IMG/VR virus record: IMGVR_UViG_3300008012_000015
Location: 1 to 31,576 of that record
Length of the DNA stretch: 31,576 nucleotides
Strand: one strand, 5' to 3'
Source of the DNA: a virus
The position numbers were made by a program, and so were the translations under genes. Below are positions 5,579 through 31,456 of this stretch, in pieces (the stretch's first letter is position 1; every line of letters starts with the position of its first letter). The notes beneath the pieces were generated by a model. That model was not told the DNA's origin. It saw only the letters and a list, made by a program, of their open reading frames with translations, and searched no databases.

Positions 5579-8113
5579 ATGGCAAAAGTATGTTTTGATA
5601 ATTTTGAAAAAGACACAGGACAAAAGTTAGACAAGAACACACGTGAACAACTTGATACTGAACACACGGAAATAAGACGTAGTTCACAAACACAAGGTAT
5701 TGATGCTGAAGCAGAAGTTGATGGTGTTAAGTTCACTGACAAAATAGTTGAAGATGAAACCAATGTAGAAGTTTTAGAACTATTAGATGACTTTATGGCA
5801 CAAGCAGATAGTTTCCAAAAAACATCAACATTCAAAAGAGATTTACAAAACAACATACAAGCATTGATGGATGAACAAAATCTATCATTAGACAAAGCCA
5901 CAGAAAAAGCATTGGTGAGTATGATATTTGATACCAATGACACACGTGGCAGTGTTCCATTTTTAGAACTTATCAAATCACAACAAAACAATTTCTTACA
6001 AGACTTTAATGAAATTACATTAAGAATATCAGGCAAGACATTTGATGATTACATTGCCAACAAAAAAAATTATGAAGCATTTTACAAAGAATTATTTGAA
6101 ATAGAAAACAATCCTACACGTAATGACAGCACTACAAAAAATGTTGAAGCATTCAACATAGCAAAAGAATTTTATGAACTTAAAATGGGTTTGGTTGCCA
6201 ACAGAATTGTTGCGGGTGATAAAGCATCATTTGCCACAGCAAGAACAAGAATAGTTTGGGACAAAGACATTGTTGCTAAAATGGGCAAACAAGAGTTTAT
6301 TCAAAAACACATTAATGAGTTAGATGAAGGTGTACACGGCACAACCATACAAAGAGAAAAAGTATTAGATGATTTGTATGAACATCTAACACAAGGTAAT
6401 GCCAATTGGCGTACAGCAGGTGACACAGCACAGAAAGGCAGAAGCCAAAAGTTTTTAAGACGTAAGCAACCAGTCCTACAATGGAAAGATGGTGAAACAT
6501 TTTTACGTATCCACAAATCATATTCACGTGTTGGCTTACAGCAACAATTGATGACAGACATTGGTGAATTTACACGTGACACTGCTATTAGACAATTTTT
6601 AGGTAGCAATCCACAACAGATGGTAAACTTTATCAATAGAACAGCACGTACCGTTAAAAAGTCATCAGCAATGAATGGTGCGTTGGATAAATTGGATCAA
6701 GTTCTTAATCCACACGATTATGAATACAACAATTCATATGCTTGGATACAAAGTTTTTTAAATTTACAGGTTGCATCAAAATTAGGTAGTGCACCAATCA
6801 CAGCCACATTGGACATACCAACAGCCATTATCGCAGGTAAAGGTTTGTTTAGTTTGGACTTTTCACAAACAATCAAACTACTAACCAATCCTTTCAAACT
6901 TTCTTTGAATGAAGAAAAACGTTGGGCACAAGAGGCGGCATTGGTGTTTGATGATATGGTTGGCAGACTTTCAGACAACAACACAGCAGGCAGTACCATC
7001 ACAGGCAAGGGACACAAAGCAGTTGATTACATTGCACAAAAGTCAATGAAGATAAGTTTCTTACAACAATGGACAATGGCAACACGTGGTGCTGTACAAG
7101 GTATTATGAGTAGAAAACTTGGCACATTCATAACCAACAAAACTGCATTTAAGGATTTGCCAAAACCATTACAAGGTGCATTGAAAAAATATGGTATTGA
7201 TGATGTAAGCAGAGGTGGCGAGCCCGCTTGGACAAGATTGTTAAGAACACAACCAATCAATGAAAGAGGTTTTGTTAATATGCGATTGCTTGATGAACAG
7301 GTGTTTGAAACAGCATTTGGTAATCAATCATTGCGTACAAAAATGACAACATTGTTTAATGATGTGGGTAAAACACTAACCATTGAAGGCAATGACTATG
7401 ACAGAGCATTGGCAACATTCTTTTCAGACGATAGAAGAGTAATAGGTGCACTTATCAAAGCGGCAACGCAGTTTAAAGGTATTGCTGTTGCTGTGTGGCG
7501 TAAAACTTTTTACAGATACAAAAAACAAAATGGCACAATGAATATGTTGATGTATGGCTCCGCACAGATAGCCGCCTTATCAGCAATGGGTTACTTTATC
7601 AATCAAGCCAAAGATTATGCGGCAGGTAGAGAACCATTACAAGGTGGTAAAGCGTGGGCACGTGCATTGGTAACAGGTGGTGGAGCAGGTATTGCCTCAG
7701 ACTTGTTTTTACAAGTGGGTGGTGAAGATTTGTTTACAGCAATAACCACAGGTGAAAAACAATACATACGTGGTGAAGATATTATATTTGGACTATTGGG
7801 TCCTGTGTTTTCAGATGCCGCAAAATTAACAAGTGGTGCACTAAATTTAGCACAAACACCTTTCACAGATGATGAAGATTTTAGAAAAACTTTACGTCCA
7901 TTAACAAGAACATTGGCAGACACAATACCACTGCAAAACTTGTGGTGGGCAAGAATGGTTATTAGAAAATATGTACACGAAGCATTACAAGAAATTGCGG
8001 ATCCAAAAGGATGGCGTGAAAGAGAAAGAAGATTAGACAAACGTGCGAGAGAAGAACGCAGAAACGGAAATTACAACAACGTATTATATGAAAGTTTACC
8101 AGATATATTTTAG
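5579..8113 (+). CDS. Internal virion protein D-like, C-terminal partner (T7 gp16 type)
   Basis: An 844-residue protein starting two bases after the previous stop, with GGAG upstream of the ATG. The first 280 residues are acidic and helical. The middle and C-terminal parts have hydrophobic amphipathic stretches (for example LNLQVASKLGSAPITATLDIPTAIIAGKGLF, and MNMLMYGSAQIAALSAMGYFINQAK near residues 655-680) and a very basic tail (KGWRERERRLDKRAREERR). These features suit the large ejected core protein that forms the trans-envelope channel. It is probably the second half of a split gp16 function. No enzyme signature was recognised. Confidence 0.6.
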   Translation: MAKVCFDNFEKDTGQKLDKNTREQLDTEHTEIRRSSQTQGIDAEAEVDGVKFTDKIVEDETNVEVLELLDDFMAQADSFQKTSTFKRDLQNNIQALMDEQNLSLDKATEKALVSMIFDTNDTRGSVPFLELIKSQQNNFLQDFNEITLRISGKTFDDYIANKKNYEAFYKELFEIENNPTRNDSTTKNVEAFNIAKEFYELKMGLVANRIVAGDKASFATARTRIVWDKDIVAKMGKQEFIQKHINELDEGVHGTTIQREKVLDDLYEHLTQGNANWRTAGDTAQKGRSQKFLRRKQPVLQWKDGETFLRIHKSYSRVGLQQQLMTDIGEFTRDTAIRQFLGSNPQQMVNFINRTARTVKKSSAMNGALDKLDQVLNPHDYEYNNSYAWIQSFLNLQVASKLGSAPITATLDIPTAIIAGKGLFSLDFSQTIKLLTNPFKLSLNEEKRWAQEAALVFDDMVGRLSDNNTAGSTITGKGHKAVDYIAQKSMKISFLQQWTMATRGAVQGIMSRKLGTFITNKTAFKDLPKPLQGALKKYGIDDVSRGGEPAWTRLLRTQPINERGFVNMRLLDEQVFETAFGNQSLRTKMTTLFNDVGKTLTIEGNDYDRALATFFSDDRRVIGALIKAATQFKGIAVAVWRKTFYRYKKQNGTMNMLMYGSAQIAALSAMGYFINQAKDYAAGREPLQGGKAWARALVTGGGAGIASDLFLQVGGEDLFTAITTGEKQYIRGEDIIFGLLGPVFSDAAKLTSGALNLAQTPFTDDEDFRKTLRPLTRTLADTIPLQNLWWARMVIRKYVHEALQEIADPKGWRERERRLDKRAREERRNGNYNNVLYESLPDIF

Positions 8114-13154: not shown

Positions 13155-13361
13155 ATGAACGAAAAAGAAACAGACAGATTGACATTGGTAGAAGTACAAG
13201 TAGCAAAGTTAGATACAAAATTAGATATATTAGCCAACAACCACCTTCAGCATCTACAAGCAGACGTTACATCAATTCGCAAAATACTTTGGTGGTTGTT
13301 TAGTGGCATCGTTGGCACACTAATATCTCTCGTTTTTATTCTTGTTCAATCTTTACTTTAA
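13155..13361 (+). CDS. Holin-like coiled-coil/one-TM protein
   Basis: A 68-residue product from ATG 13155, chosen over an upstream in-frame GTG because it has AGGTGA at good spacing. Residues 1-40 form a heptad-like charged helix (LVEVQVAKLDTKLDILANNHLQHL). Residues 45-67 are a single membrane span (LWWLFSGIVGTLISLVFILVQSL). This coiled-coil plus C-terminal TM layout resembles XhlA-type and other phage lysis accessory proteins. Its place after the tail genes matches T7 gene 17.5 (holin). It is the only lysis candidate in the late operon, and no endolysin was recognised. Its 3' end overlaps the convergent leftward gene by 26 bases. Confidence 0.55.
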   Translation: MNEKETDRLTLVEVQVAKLDTKLDILANNHLQHLQADVTSIRKILWWLFSGIVGTLISLVFILVQSLL

Positions 13362-13674
13362 TTTGTTCACAACTATTCAAAAGTATTTTCCATAACTTGT
13401 GATTGTTGTTGGAGTTGCTCCATTTATCATTTTTGTTTCTTAATCTAAACGGACGTTGTTGTAGTTTATTCTGTGCCCACAATCTTTCAGGTGCTTTGAT
13501 GTATTTGGATTGCATCGCATATTCCATTAATATTTCAAACTCGTGTGGATCCAATAAATCTACCAAGTCCCACCATTCTTTGTCATTCTTTGGCATTGCG
13601 CCTTTCATCTTTATAAGTTCTTGCCACCTTTCATAGATGGCAATAACTGCAACACCACTATCTGTGATTTTCAT
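13336..13674 (-). CDS. Hypothetical protein, last gene of leftward block
   Basis: A 112-residue protein of unknown function, mostly helical, Trp-rich (seven Trp) and with a basic C-terminal half (KLQQRPFRLRNKNDKWSNSNNNHK). The start is preceded by AAGGA on the minus strand and lies 17 bases inside the upstream leftward gene, implying translational coupling. Its end overlaps the convergent holin-like gene by 26 bases. The segment EWWDLVDLLDPHEFEILMEYAMQ looks like an acidic interaction helix. No family is recognised. Confidence 0.6.
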   Translation of the reverse strand: MKITDSGVAVIAIYERWQELIKMKGAMPKNDKEWWDLVDLLDPHEFEILMEYAMQSKYIKAPERLWAQNKLQQRPFRLRNKNDKWSNSNNNHKLWKILLNSCEQIKVKIEQE

Positions 13675-14185
13675 TTGTTATTTTCCTTGCGTGTTCTAAT
13701 GCCTTGTCCCAAGTGGGTAATTTTGATTGTCTTTCACCAATCATTTTCATTGCTTCATCAACAAATCTATTCTTCTTGTTTGAATCCTGCCAACCAATGC
13801 GTATGCTTAAATCGTTTTTGGTTTTGTACAACAAGTGAATACAATCTTTTGTGGTTTGTTCTGTGAAGTTGTCTTGTAGTGTTTCACAACTATTCGCATT
13901 GATTACATCCACAATGTCTTTGTCGCCTGTGCTCCAAAGAAACAATCTGTCTGCTTTGGTACAACCAATTTTTTCAAATTCTTGTAACGCTTGTAGGATT
14001 GCTGAAAGTTGTTGATGAATTTTATCACCACGTGCCAAAAATGTTTTGGCTTTGACGGGAACGAGTTCCTCGCCCATACTATCATCCAAATTTGATTTGA
14101 CTTTTTTCTTTATTTGTCCTGTGACTGCACAGGTTAGTTTGGTGTCATCTAAACGTGACGACACATACAAAGTGACGGTTGCCAT
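13658..14185 (-). CDS. Hypothetical protein, 175 residues
   Basis: I place the start at the ATG of MATVTLYVSSRLDDTK because AGGAGA stands just upstream; a longer open frame continues to 14428 but lacks a ribosome-binding site. The N-terminal half is beta-like and basic (KLTCAVTGQIKKKVKSNLDD). The centre is helical (QLSAILQALQEFEKIG), and the C-terminus (RFVDEAMKMIGERQSKLPTWDKALEHARKI) is amphipathic. No family is recognised. It forms a two-gene unit with the 112-residue gene. A possible sigma70-like promoter (TTGCTT, 17 bases, TACAAT on the minus strand at 14283-14255) could drive it independently of the integrase operon. Confidence 0.6.
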   Translation of the reverse strand: MATVTLYVSSRLDDTKLTCAVTGQIKKKVKSNLDDSMGEELVPVKAKTFLARGDKIHQQLSAILQALQEFEKIGCTKADRLFLWSTGDKDIVDVINANSCETLQDNFTEQTTKDCIHLLYKTKNDLSIRIGWQDSNKKNRFVDEAMKMIGERQSKLPTWDKALEHARKITNENHR

Positions 14186-14254
14186 ATATATTTCTCCTTT
14201 TCGTTGCTGTTCTCTGCAACAATATTTATATGCGTCTCTCTGCTTGTGTGTGTT

Positions 14255-14283
14255 ATTGTACAATATTGCGTCAAAAAAAGCAA
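14255..14283 (-). promoter_or_regulatory. Possible sigma70-like promoter for the two-gene leftward unit
   Basis: On the minus strand, TTGCTT is followed after 17 bases by TACAAT. The -10 box matches 5 of 6 consensus bases but the -35 only 3 of 6. It lies about 70 bases before the start codon at 14185, which has a clear ribosome-binding site. It is back-to-back with the rightward promoter at 14321-14350. Confidence 0.35.
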
Positions 14284-14320
14284 GTAAAATCAGGCACTTA
14301 CGGGGATTTGAAGAAAAAAC

Positions 14321-14350
14321 TTGACTTTTTAGCATAAAGTACCGTATAAT
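14321..14350 (+). promoter_or_regulatory. Strong sigma70-like promoter facing an RNA-like region
   Basis: TTGACT (14321-14326), an 18-base spacer and a perfect TATAAT (14345-14350) on the plus strand. No plus-strand gene lies downstream for more than 4 kb; the flanking genes run leftward. The predicted start near 14357 coincides with the 5' base of a hairpin ending in six T residues. It therefore probably transcribes non-coding RNA, and may also produce antisense RNA to the 3' end of the integrase gene. Confidence 0.65.
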
Positions 14351-14355
14351 GTAAC

Positions 14356-14402
14356 AAATGGCGCTGTATGACGCTTTAAATAGGAATAAAGCACCATTTT
14401 TT
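14356..14402 (+). terminator. Attenuator-like hairpin right after the promoter
   Basis: AAATGG (14356-14361) pairs with CCATTT (14394-14399), and inside it GCTTTA (14373-14378) pairs with TAAAGC (14387-14392). The last six bases are T (14397-14402). It begins at the expected transcription start of the promoter at 14321-14350, so most transcripts may stop after about 45 bases and read-through would be needed to make the longer RNA. The stem is interrupted and AT-rich, so termination strength is uncertain. Confidence 0.45.
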
Positions 14403-14505
14403 AGGCATTTTAGGGCATATTTAGGCATATTACATAAATATTATTACAGGCACACGTTTTAGGCTAATATCTACACACACAGGCAAACATCTTCCAACAT
14501 AGGCT
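14401..14505. repeat. AGGC iteron-like repeats
   Basis: TTAGGCAT occurs at 14401-14408 and 14421-14428, with a one-base variant TTAGGGCAT at 14410-14418. Further AGGCA/AGGCT words follow at 14448, 14461, 14481 and 14501. Spacing is about 10 bases at first and 13-25 later. The cluster lies between the integrase gene and the leftward two-gene unit. It could be integrase arm-binding sites of attP, replication iterons or operator sites; the sequence alone does not decide. Confidence 0.4.
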
Positions 14506-14559
14506 ATATAGTTTCCACACAAACATACGGAAGTGCGTGAATTAATGTAATGGTGAATC

Positions 14560-14892
14560 CGTTGAAACCGTTGGTGTTGGCGTTATCAACACAAGGCATA
14601 TACTATGAAACACAATGACACCTGAAAGTGTTTCTTAAAAATCGTAGCAGTGGGGTAAGGTACAGAGCCCAAGTAAAATTATGCCTGTGTAATGCGAATA
14701 AATCTGCTGTCAAAAAAGGGCAAATGAACTTTTAGACATTCTCTTGTAGGGTGTCTATTGAGCAAATGAAAGTTAATCACTTGTAAAAGAAAATCACAAA
14801 CGAACGCAAGTGAGTTTGTAGCCTAACACGAAGTGTTAGTGCTTAATATGATAGTAAAATCATCAAAATGATATTTGAAATAACCACAAGTT
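14560..14892 (+). ncRNA. Candidate structured non-coding RNA
   Basis: A dense run of stems lies in DNA without a gene. GTGTTG/CAACAC is at 14573-14578 and 14587-14592. GAAACAC/GTGTTTC is at 14607-14613 and 14628-14634. AGCAG/CTGCT encloses TGGG/CCCA near 14646-14708. AGACA/TGTCT lies near 14734-14756. CTAACAC-GAA-GTGTTAG is at 14823-14839 and ATCAT/ATGAT near 14859-14872. Purine-rich loops (GAA, GCAA) and the upstream promoter favour the plus strand. TCACTTG/CAAGTGA and ACAAAC/GTTTGT interleave near 14776-14819, so they could be alternative or pseudoknotted pairings. The class is unknown. Large ornate phage RNAs such as GOLLD are a possible comparison, but I cannot test homology. Confidence 0.5.
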
Positions 14893-14896
14893 CCAT

Positions 14897-16126
14897 TTAT
14901 ACCTCCTCAAACAATTGATTGTAATTGGTATCCAAAGTTTTGTATTCTTCCGTGTCTTCATCCAATGCCACCACTTTGTTTTTGGCAAGCAATGGAACCA
15001 CATTTGAATAGTGTTCCTCAATCATCTTAACACTGGTACCACATTGTGATGCGATGATGTCTGATGTAACACCTGCCAATAATCTGTGTGTGATGTATGT
15101 GTGTCTCAAACTATAGACTGAATAGTTAAGTCCACTCACAGGATCCACTTTCATATCACATCTGTTCAATAGGTTGTCAAAGCCATTCTCAAATGACAGA
15201 TGCTGTGGAAAGAACTTTTCCGTCAAGTCAATGCCAAGCCGTGCATATTTCTTTATGTGCTTGTCCACCACAGGTGTCGCTGAAGGCATCAGCACACACG
15301 TTCTCTTGTGTGAACGTTTGCCACTGATTGTTTTCGTCTTAAACAATATTTGGATTGAATAAGCATCACGTGTTCTGCCTTTTTGTTTTACTTTTATTTT
15401 TTCTATGTGTTTGGCGCCAATTGAAGCCAATTCACCTGAACGTGCACCACAATTCAACATCATCACAATGTATGTGTACAAGTCTTCTCTTTTGCTACGC
15501 ACGGTAGGATGTGTTGCTATTGAAATATTTCTGTTCGCTTCAAACAACAATCGCTTGTCCGCACCATTTACGAAGGCAGGACGTCTCGCACTTTCAACAC
15601 GATATTTGGGGAACTCAGGTATTGCTTTTCTTTTCAATATATTCTGTGACACACACCAATTGAAAAAGTTTTTCAGCACCACCAAATCATTGTGTATGGT
15701 AGAACTTGTAGGCACGGTGCCACGTGGTGTAAGCACCGTCTTACGCCAAGCCAACCAATCAATCAGAGTGTGTTCTGTGATTTCATCTATTCGCATTTTG
15801 GCGAACTTGAACAAGAAGTATTTTTGGAACTGCCCGTCAAATTGGCGATATTTTCTGTACTTGTATTCGTCCTTTATCCACGCCTCATATCGCTTGTATA
15901 AATCTTTTATGTAAGGCGCAGTTGTGGGCACGGAACCGTGTTCTTTGTAGTGTACACGCAAGTCATCATAGCGAGCATACGCCTTCGCTTTGGCAGTCTC
16001 CAAATCATTGGTGCCACAAGTTTCTCTGACGTAGGTTGTGCCAATCTTAATCTGCATATGCCAAGTCCTGTTACGCAGTCCCAAAACAATGGCGCCGTCA
16101 TTTAATCTAATCTTTTGTGCGTACAT
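14897..16126 (-). CDS. int: Tyrosine recombinase (phage integrase)
   Basis: A 409-residue site-specific recombinase that would integrate and excise the phage. An N-terminal DNA-arm domain (about 1-65) and a SAM-like core-binding domain (about 66-165) precede the catalytic domain. Catalytic residues visible: R229 in NCGARSGEL, R341 in YSLRHTYITH, and the nucleophile Y373 in MIEEHYSNV. The first position of the usual HxxR motif is Tyr (Y338), a change also seen in other phage integrases. The start is supported by GAGGT upstream, and the upstream gene ends two bases before it, so it is the last gene of the leftward operon. The DNA just beyond its 3' end is the repeat- and stem-rich gap at 14400-14892, a normal place for attP. 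Confidence 0.93.
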   Translation of the reverse strand: MYAQKIRLNDGAIVLGLRNRTWHMQIKIGTTYVRETCGTNDLETAKAKAYARYDDLRVHYKEHGSVPTTAPYIKDLYKRYEAWIKDEYKYRKYRQFDGQFQKYFLFKFAKMRIDEITEHTLIDWLAWRKTVLTPRGTVPTSSTIHNDLVVLKNFFNWCVSQNILKRKAIPEFPKYRVESARRPAFVNGADKRLLFEANRNISIATHPTVRSKREDLYTYIVMMLNCGARSGELASIGAKHIEKIKVKQKGRTRDAYSIQILFKTKTISGKRSHKRTCVLMPSATPVVDKHIKKYARLGIDLTEKFFPQHLSFENGFDNLLNRCDMKVDPVSGLNYSVYSLRHTYITHRLLAGVTSDIIASQCGTSVKMIEEHYSNVVPLLAKNKVVALDEDTEEYKTLDTNYNQLFEEV

Positions 16127-18326: not shown

Positions 18327-18478
18327 GCCCCTTATTTTCCGCAGTTTTTGGGGGTTTTTTGACTATGTGGACAGATTTTTTTGGTAAATGTACATTTCCG
18401 TAGTAAGTAACGCCACCAAAAAAGAGATATTTTATTGGCTTTTTGGAAGGCATTTTTCATTTGTGTATGCTTTGTGTA

Positions 18479-18555
18479 TGGCTCCGCAGGTAGGATTTGA
18501 ACCTACAACCTTCTGTTCCGTAGACAGACGCTCTATCCAATTGGGCTACTGCGGA
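18479..18555 (-). tRNA. tRNA-Arg (anticodon ACG)
   Basis: A complete cloverleaf on the minus strand. The acceptor stem TCCGCAG/CTGCGGA is fully paired. The D arm contains the AATTGGATA loop, the anticodon stem TCTGT/ACAGA carries loop CTACGGA (anticodon ACG, read as ICG), and the T arm is GTAGG-TTCAAAT-CCTAC. Discriminator G and an encoded CCA follow. There is one mismatch in the D stem. It would read CGU/CGC/CGA; CGT is a common Arg codon in the phage genes. It sits upstream of the leftward promoter. It may supply tRNA, or be the attachment core that restores a host tRNA-Arg after integration. Confidence 0.93.
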
Positions 18556-29414: not shown

Positions 29415-31456
29415 TGCCAAACATTAAGATTGTGCAGAATAGTTTCACACAAGGTGAAGTTGGTGAATACTTTGATGCACGTGAAGATTTAGCGATATAT
29501 CCTGCGGCGGCAAAAACGGTAGAGAATTGGTTTATACTACCACAAGGTGGTTTGTTGCGTAGAACAGGTTTTGAATGGATTGATGGAACCAATCCAACGG
29601 TGTTGTCACCTGCCAAAGCAGACACAACAATGGATGATGAAACAGGTTTTGAAAGTCACGCAAGACTTATACCATTTCGTTTTTCAACATCACAAGAATA
29701 TGTGCTTGTGTTTGAAGCAGGCAAGTTCCACGTGTACAAAGATGGTGGTTACGCAACTACCGTAACATCAAATTGTTTTTGGGACGCAAGTAACATCAAT
29801 GAATTAAGATTTGCACAAACATTTGACACAATGATTGTGGTGCAAGAAGACAACGCACCTGTGCAAATCACAAGAACAGGACACACCAGTTGGACTTGTA
29901 CTCAAATTTCACACACTTTTTTACCATTGGCAAATTTCAACAATGGCATAACACTTACACCAGCATCAAAAACAGGCACAAACGTTCATCTAACAGCATC
30001 ATCAGATCCAAGTGGCGATTTTAGTGTTGGTGATTACATAAGAATAAATGGAGGGTTGGTAAAACTCACAGCAGTGTCAACATCTACAACAATAACTATA
30101 GACATTGAAGAAGATTTAGCATCAACCACAGCGGCGGGTCCAACTGAATATGAACAAACAGCATTCTTTAGTGGCAACTATCCACGTAGTGTTTCCTTTC
30201 ACCAAAACAGATTGATATATGGTGGCACAAGATTAAAACCACAAACCATTTTTGGTAGCCAAAGTGGAGATTTCTTCAATTTCAAACCCACCGTTGCAAC
30301 AACAGATAGTAATTCAACCACAGGCAGTGTAACAGATGATAGTGGCTTTGCATTCACCATTGGTAGTGATGAAGTAAACGTAATTAGACATTTAATATCC
30401 AAACAAACTCTTTTTATATTCACAAGTGGTGGTGAATTTGAAATGACGGGGGCGCCAGTTACACCAACCAACGTGAACATAAGATTACAAACACGTTATG
30501 GTGCGTTAGCAGGTGGTTTGCGTCCAACAACAATTGACAACGAAGTTCTATTTTGTTCTGCCAATGGTAGAGAATTAAGAGGCTTTGTGTTTGATTTCAA
30601 TAGTGATTCCTACTATGCGAAAAACTATTCAATTGTTGCACACGACATAATGGACAATCCACAAGACTTGACATTTATGCGAGCACACAGAAACACAAAC
30701 CAAAACTATTTGTTTGTGGTTATGCAAGATGGCACGTTGGGTGTGTTTGGTTTGAATGTTGAAAAACAAGTACAAGGTTGGAGTAGATTTACAATTGATG
30801 GTGGTAAATTCAAAAAAGTTCTTGCTGTAAATGATGCGGACACCACACCAGAAACACAGAGATTGTATGCAATCATTGAAAGAACATACACCAAAGATGA
30901 TGCAACAACGGTTACATCATACACATTGGAAAGATTAACAGAGGAACAAATTTATTTAGATGGTTGGGCACGTAAACAAAGTATTTCAGAATTTAACACC
31001 ATAGCAGGTGCTTATAACTTTGCTAACCAAACGGTTAATGTTGTTGCTGATGGTATTGTACACGCAGATGTTACATTAGGCACGAGAGCATCAACGGCAG
31101 GTGCAACATTGAATGACAACTATACAAATGTTGTGGTTGGTAAAAATTACACAAGCAAACTTACAACATTGACATTGCCAGTAACCATAAACGGGCAACC
31201 CTATAGAGGGGAACAGATTACAAAAGTGTCTGCACTTATCAACTTGAACAAAACACAGGCATTGAGTGTTGATGGTACGGCACTTGATTTTAGATTTAGT
31301 GGACAGGCATTAGATACATCCATTGCACAATTCACAGGCACAAAGAAAACTTTCTTAAGTGGTATCAGCACAGACCCAACGGTTGAAATAACGGTGGATT
31401 CGCCATTGTCAGCGACACTATTGGGATTAACAACGGAAGTTAAGTTTGGGCAATAA
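29414..31456 (+). CDS. Tail tube protein B, nozzle (T7 gp12 type)
   Basis: A 680-residue protein with the start typical of the family: IKIVQNSFTQGEVGEYFDAREDLAIYPAAAKTVENWFILPQGGLLRRTGFEWID (about 4-57). A beta-propeller-like body follows, with RLIPFRFSTSQEYVLVFEAGKFHVYKDG, SFHQNRLIYGGTRLKPQTIFGSQSGDFFNF and EVLFCSANGRELRGFVFDF. It forms the nozzle that carries the fibres. It is somewhat shorter than T7 gp12 (about 790). The start overlaps the tail tube A stop as TAATG. The stop lies inside the terminal repeat, so the gene crosses into it intact. Confidence 0.92.
   Translation: MPNIKIVQNSFTQGEVGEYFDAREDLAIYPAAAKTVENWFILPQGGLLRRTGFEWIDGTNPTVLSPAKADTTMDDETGFESHARLIPFRFSTSQEYVLVFEAGKFHVYKDGGYATTVTSNCFWDASNINELRFAQTFDTMIVVQEDNAPVQITRTGHTSWTCTQISHTFLPLANFNNGITLTPASKTGTNVHLTASSDPSGDFSVGDYIRINGGLVKLTAVSTSTTITIDIEEDLASTTAAGPTEYEQTAFFSGNYPRSVSFHQNRLIYGGTRLKPQTIFGSQSGDFFNFKPTVATTDSNSTTGSVTDDSGFAFTIGSDEVNVIRHLISKQTLFIFTSGGEFEMTGAPVTPTNVNIRLQTRYGALAGGLRPTTIDNEVLFCSANGRELRGFVFDFNSDSYYAKNYSIVAHDIMDNPQDLTFMRAHRNTNQNYLFVVMQDGTLGVFGLNVEKQVQGWSRFTIDGGKFKKVLAVNDADTTPETQRLYAIIERTYTKDDATTVTSYTLERLTEEQIYLDGWARKQSISEFNTIAGAYNFANQTVNVVADGIVHADVTLGTRASTAGATLNDNYTNVVVGKNYTSKLTTLTLPVTINGQPYRGEQITKVSALINLNKTQALSVDGTALDFRFSGQALDTSIAQFTGTKKTFLSGISTDPTVEITVDSPLSATLLGLTTEVKFGQ

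Follow-up and report, generated by a model that had tools for sequence, protein, structure and literature searches.

The DNA analysed here (the window) comprises the 31,576 bases of an IMG/VR virus record, whose structural genes are podovirus-like and include a terminase, a head-tail adaptor, a major head protein, tail proteins and internal virion proteins. Its gene order continues across the record ends (a tail protein ends at 31456 and an internal virion protein runs from 36), and on this basis the record may represent a permuted, near-complete genome. Within it, the interval 14186-14896 is flanked on both sides by leftward genes (table 1). The next plausible rightward ORF lies at 18388, about 4.07 kb past the promoter described below and 3.5 kb past the end of the RNA, which agrees with the original prediction of leftward neighbours and no rightward gene for more than 4 kb. 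An Rfam scan of the whole window gave a tRNA as the sole match. This complete tRNA-Arg (ACG) gene (18479-18555, minus strand) lies near the start of the leftward integrase cluster, 3.6 kb from the RNA, and is a candidate attachment site or phage tRNA; in a search for the host, its best match was 89% over 61 of 77 bases. In a related record, L003, a tRNA-Asn is found at 5654-5729, just ahead of the integrase.

Table 1. Features of the RNA locus and its two flanking genes, in window positions.
Feature	Position	Strand	Description
RNase HI-fold protein gene	13658..14185	-	175 aa; divergent from the RNA; fold from a predicted model
Sigma-70-type promoter	14321..14350	+	TTGACT-18-TATAAT
P0, 5' hairpin	14356..14399	+	9 of 10 pairs in the window; arms picked by eye
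AGGC tract	14403..14504	+	Six AGGC and one AGGGC, partly at 10-nt spacing
P2 hairpin	14574..14592	+	GUGUUG/CAACAC; nearly invariant
Core P3-P6	14591..14689	+	Hairpins P5 and P6 inside outer helices P3 and P4
P7 hairpin	14733..14757	+	UAGACAUUC/GGGUGUCUA; five members; arms picked by eye
P8	14796..14819	+	6-bp helix, tandem GA/GA mismatches, 2-bp helix, GCAA loop
P9	14820..14843	+	AGC...GCU outer, CUAACAC GAA GUGUUAG inner, bulged U
P10 closing hairpin	14845..14875	+	AAUAU/AUAUU; arms picked by eye
Integrase (phrog_1)	14897..16126	-	Convergent with the RNA; context only

Scored on the sigma-70-type consensus, the promoter is the sole 11/12 match in the whole window on either strand. A match of this quality arose in 25 of 1000 dinucleotide shuffles of 14186-14896, and whole-window shuffles averaged 1.6. 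On score alone the promoter is modest, and the case for it is carried by conservation. TTGAC(A/T)-18-TA(A/C)AAT is present in L002, L003 and L041, all three relatives that extend that far 5', and the distance from the end of the -10 element to the first AGGC is 50, 53 and 53 nt in these relatives and 52 nt in the window. The near-consensus plus-strand promoter that had been proposed is thus confirmed as a conserved element with an 18-nt spacer. The RNA is predicted to start near 14357, and it would occupy about 530 nt of the plus strand, from about 14357 to about 14880. We took the plus strand as the RNA strand based on the promoter and on the U-G/G-U pairs that the consensus structures retain; read on the opposite strand, these pairs would be C-A mismatches. 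The folding program favours U-G/G-U pairs, so the latter argument is support and not proof. Folding of the single sequence was misleading here and was dropped as evidence: the plus strand of 14357-14892 was unremarkable in energy (z -0.26, with 39 of 100 shuffles as good), while the minus strand scored better (z -2.08). A coding frame, which the original prediction had named as a competing source of conservation, did not account for it either, since no open run in 14429-14892 exceeded 50 codons on either strand and the longest in shuffles averaged 66.

The first homologues, L002 and L003, were reached via the integrase. The DNA directly beyond the integrase gave no alignment of the window with either of them; the intergenic stretch upstream of their relatives of gene 13658-14185 aligns at 68% over 415 bases (L002) and 79% over 109 bases (L003). 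A motif search added L041 and L030, two pieces of a third record that flank a gap and were treated separately. L041:3132-3527 and L030:1-464 are two unequal copies of the middle of the RNA that meet at this gap, and they are probably variants of two strains scaffolded together. In the RNAalifold alignment of four homologues, 17 of 50 pairs showed compensatory changes. In the core P3-P6, with its conserved sequences CUUAAAAAUCG and GGUAAGG...AGAGCC, such changes occurred in 8 of 21 pairs among five homologues including L100; L002 was left out of this alignment because it aligned poorly. L100, which was found through the 3' module described below, has the P3-P6 core, and a model trained without it recovers it at the correct strand and place, with an E-value of 8.6e-7 among all loci searched, which is rough, as are all E-values of the models built here. 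The stems that had been seen in the single sequence are therefore backed by covariation among homologues and not by folding energy.

Not every helix contributes to this evidence. P2 gives no covariation evidence because it is nearly invariant, and a possible P1 helix (GGUGAAU) was dropped since it pairs at only 5-7 of 7 positions. In P7, pairing was 1.00 for the members' own arms and 0.67 for swapped arms, again with arms picked by eye. P10 has a counterpart in L003 and L030 (GACCAU/AUGGUC) and is likely to lie close to the 3' end of the RNA; no clear terminator was found after P9 in the window. The helix arms picked by eye (P0, P7, P10 and the swaps) serve as illustration and not as proof. 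The weight rests on the RNAalifold alignments, the core and T4-like alignments, and the pairing tests of P8 and P9.

The 3' module consists of P8 and the adjacent P9, 48 nt in the window (14796-14843). On 28 rows, 6 of 8 pairs of P8 were changed on both sides, and the covariation score was 0.636, compared with 0.199 in shuffled alignments. The proportion of P8 cells that were paired was 97.8%, against 75.9% when shuffled and 31-36% when slid. The search patterns partly selected P8, fixing several bases and R/Y classes and leaving pairs 2-23 and 3-22 free. P9 is absent from these patterns beyond its first bases; each of the 15 distinct rows tested has it paired, and both bases have changed in 5 of its 8 pairs. 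Over 16 rows, P8 and P9 together were 98.3% paired (83.2% shuffled, 31-38% slid). A covariance model of the module, R2, was built from 16 rows that excluded the window clade. It finds the window at 14796-14843 with 31.4 bits (E 2.4e-5, a rough value) and L003 with 42.6 bits. The window has P8 with the tandem GA/GA mismatches and the inner 2-bp helix, P9 directly after it, and a covarying body upstream of the module.

The module occurs in many viral records. The P8 pattern found 20 stretches in viral_contigs, with P8 fully paired in all of them, and 18 passed a fixed structural rule that requires an unbroken P9 stem besides P8. Two true members of the window clade, L017 and L030, fail this rule because of a bulge in P9. 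Over three motif scans (one strict and two relaxed, one of the latter with 29 of its 30 stretches entered in the count), 41 of 50 viral loci pass, of which 31 are distinct. The family set comprises 45 loci. Eight others were left out because P8 or P9 is broken (L074, L077, L083, L085, L088, L090, L104 and L110); L089 was retained though it has no P9, and the GC-rich L107 is a doubtful member. Of the 45 stretches, 11 duplicate others exactly or almost exactly. Run over whole records, R2 matched 38 of 40, at one place per record except in G031, where the second place is weak, lies on the opposite strand and overlaps the first. The two records without a match (holding L004 and L060) are short and had been included as integrase relatives; 6 of the 40 records carry RNA stretches identical to those of another record. 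Every family-defining scan looks for P8, so members with an altered P8 are missed.

Outside uncultured viral records, little was found. The P8 pattern gave eight hits in the bacterial genomes of genome_contigs, and only L076 passed the rule, loosely (P8 5/6, 6-bp stem); shuffles often give a stem of at least 5 bp (98 of 820), so it was counted as chance. R2 matched 0 of 385 and 0 of 369 in bacterial genomes, which is weak evidence because the filters were strict and a positive control was lacking. In cultured phages, neither the window nor any of four family members had a DNA match, and the window integrase had no protein match. Four cultured-phage loci (L112-L115), reached via gp26-like baseplate genes and one weak DNA hit, gave no R2 match; this weak hit (H33, E about 1) adjoins an intrinsic terminator and was rejected. 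Rfam 15 had no match for the family, save for Polynucleobacter-1 in L061, and a description of phage RNAs with this 3' module was not found in the portions of the literature covered by our search. Judged from sequence comparison, these RNAs appear to be a previously unnamed family of folded RNAs across many uncultured phages.

The family is found in both podovirus-like and T4-like records, with one copy of the module per record and a body that differs between lineages. In the T4-like branch, the body upstream of the module is about 440 nt, and 35 of 96 predicted pairs show compensatory changes. Body homology to the window is confined to the window clade and L100. A model of the body, R3, found only L100, which was one of its training rows, and missed L002; because it failed to join the bodies of the branches, only the 3' module is claimed as family-wide. 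Hairpins resembling GGUAAG...AGAGCC were seen by eye in L068, L092 and L093. In L061, Polynucleobacter-1 (RF01718) matches at 214-350 with 113.7 bits. It shares the strand of the module, and about 250 nt separate its end from the module downstream; it is absent from the other family loci scanned. Polynucleobacter-1 may thus be part of the body of one lineage, or a fragment of a longer phage RNA. Based on these differing T4-like, podovirus-like and L061 contexts, we regard the family as one 3' module with several bodies.

The flanking genes also differ between branches, and no protein gene is common to all members. In T4-like members, the RNA follows a gene that we read as putatively nuclease-like and is convergent with a baseplate-hub-type gene, whose protein matches hub genes of cultured jumbo phages. 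A convergent gene likewise follows the RNA in the podovirus-like L052 and L053. Upstream of the RNA, L053 and L051 have a nearly perfect inverted repeat (TTATGCTGA...TCAGCATAA in L053). It extends across the divergent promoter region and might be operator-like. These contexts bear on whether the RNA could act in cis, as a leader, attenuator or riboswitch. L063, L066 and L072 (about 250 nt downstream) and L054 (about 560 nt) each have a sense ORF after the RNA, and a cis role is conceivable there. Moreover, the table row of Polynucleobacter-1 in PMC2864571 carries a 'y', which we take to denote a cis-acting element. Against this, the convergent genes of the T4-like loci, L052 and L053, the 3.5 kb without a sense gene in the window and the unconserved T run described below make a cis role very improbable. 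Trans action is favoured because the window lacks a sense gene over that distance and because the neighbours change between branches; the RNA probably acts in trans.

The 5' part of the RNA is specific to some members. The hairpin P0 is kept with altered sequence, at 7 of 8 pairs in L003 and 8 of 8 in L041 with arms picked by eye, and its arms in L002 were recognised in sequence only. In the window it is followed by six T residues (14397-14402), and it had been described as an attenuator-like hairpin. The hairpin is real and kept, but the attenuator reading is unsupported because the T run is not conserved: L002 has TTT at this position, L003 TTAT and L041 AATT. An intrinsic-terminator attenuator, for which a conserved U run after the hairpin is expected, was therefore rejected. 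The AGGC repeats fared better. AGGC occurs 6 times in 14357-14510, the shuffled mean is 1.7, and at least 6 copies arose in 5 of 2000 shuffles; L002, L003 and L041 have 3 to 4 copies at the corresponding position. AGGC repeats near the 5' end of the RNA are also present in the podovirus-like L051-L053.

Two rival readings give the repeats the leading role. One is a regulatory trans RNA, whose single-stranded AGGC sites bind a host or phage protein or target RNAs (as a sponge or antisense RNA), with the fold providing stability. Within the window clade, the spacers between the copies vary while the position of the tract is conserved, as this reading would expect. However, T4-like members have few AGGC copies upstream of the module, so the tract does not represent a family-wide function, and we consider this reading possible but unlikely. 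The other is an attP, in which AGGC would be arm-type integrase binding sites and the hairpins DNA cruciforms. The original prediction had allowed for it; the RNA adjoins the integrase in the window, and some repeats are spaced 10 nt apart, as would suit sites on one face of the DNA. This role is disfavoured, and we rate it as most improbable, because other genes (one read by eye as a DNA methylase) lie between the integrase and the RNA in L002 and L003, the 29.3-kb record of L030 contains the RNA and no match to the window integrase, and 9 of 10 RNA-bearing records, some of them fragments, have no phrog_1 match.

The divergent neighbour gene was considered as a possible partner. It is a conserved neighbour of the RNA in the window, L002, L003 and L056 (the record of L041), and T4-like members have other neighbours. 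The protein has no Pfam or PHROG match. A model predicted from four sequences only (mean pLDDT 82) resembles 3u3g_A (Z 13.7, rmsd 2.7 over 134 residues; Foldseek E 2.9e-5), which predicts an RNase HI fold. RNase HI has four catalytic acids. In the alignment, read by eye, the positions of the strand-1 Asp and the helix-1 Glu are not acidic, and D88 and D143 are invariant in 4 rows. The protein thus appears to lack two of the four acids; it may bind rather than cut, and it is a possible candidate RNA partner.

This gene also bears on a possible role of the RNA in replication, as a primer or origin RNA resembling ColE1 RNAII, which would be transcribed from its own promoter and undergo processing at a hybrid. 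The predicted RNase HI fold would suit such a role, and no replication gene was recognised among the window ORFs scanned, which included only part of the small ones. The apparent loss of two catalytic acids, at positions assigned by eye, argues against it. Moreover, T4-like phages carry their own replisome, and the family occurs in them too. We therefore regard a primer RNA as improbable. There is a slender chance that the AGGC tract, whose spacers change fast and which the folded body and the family-wide 3' module cap, is the variable arm of an RNA-directed phage system that, in the podovirus-like branch, works with a catalytically dead RNase H-fold protein.

Taken together, the locus almost certainly encodes a functional structured RNA, as judged from homology, covariation and the conserved promoter. 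These same lines support the original prediction that the interval is not spacer DNA and encodes a dedicated plus-strand non-coding RNA of a few hundred bases. Our preferred reading, to which we give a probability of about 0.55, is a structured RNA of the scaffold type, about 530 nt long, that stands alone and acts in trans. Among trans roles, scaffolding or assembly is a tentative choice by analogy: one 3' module is kept on differing ornate bodies, as for GOLLD in the text available to us. We hypothesize that the host sigma-70 RNA polymerase would make the RNA in the infected cell or lysogen, and that the P8-P9 module near the 3' end would provide a protected end and a common docking or assembly site. 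The lineage-specific body, with the AGGC tract in podovirus-like members, would hold a partner or cargo. The RNA would thus act as a scaffold, as proposed for GOLLD and ROOL, and would not switch a neighbouring gene. Because the family crosses podovirus-like and T4-like phages, its function is arguably useful in many infections. Large structured phage RNAs are few and their functions poorly understood; the 3' module offers a compact, searchable handle on the family and a small, testable set of loci.

The Rfam search that had been suggested was run on 14200-14950 (751 bases) at E up to 5 and gave two matches, both far below their gathering scores, so nothing credible was found. Polynucleobacter-1 (a model of 141 positions) had no match in the window at E 5, and a group I or other catalytic intron was rejected since no Rfam intron model matched in 14200-14950. 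The VIPR vrRNA is similar in that it is a phage RNA whose structured tail comes after a G-rich repeat tract. According to the part of PMC13142463 available, VIPR has 9-16 tandem YNNGG pentamers and an adjacent small RAMP protein (single RRM). The best 12-pentamer stretch of the window has 4 of 12 in-phase GGY, with a longest exact run of 2, so a VIPR guide of the kind described there was rejected. As to the neighbour, a RAMP/RRM fold is described for VIPR; of the two neighbours 13658-14185 and 13336-13674 (112 aa), the fold prediction covered the former, which is predicted to have an RNase HI fold. The RNA-directed system mentioned above would be VIPR-like in logic and not in descent.

GOLLD had been proposed as the first comparison, which is fair in kind, but membership is rejected, as is that of ROOL: neither Rfam model matched the window region at E up to 5 or the relatives scanned. 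GOLLD exceeds 800 nt, compared with about 530 nt here, and often lies near tRNA islands, whereas a tRNA gene was present at only 1 of 37 RNA-bearing loci scanned; its absence from the other 36 also distinguishes the family from ROOL. Both share features with the RNA reported here. According to PMC12286853, ROOL is likewise a structured RNA of phages or prophages for which no protein partner is known, and GOLLD combines a conserved 3' region with a less conserved 5' region.
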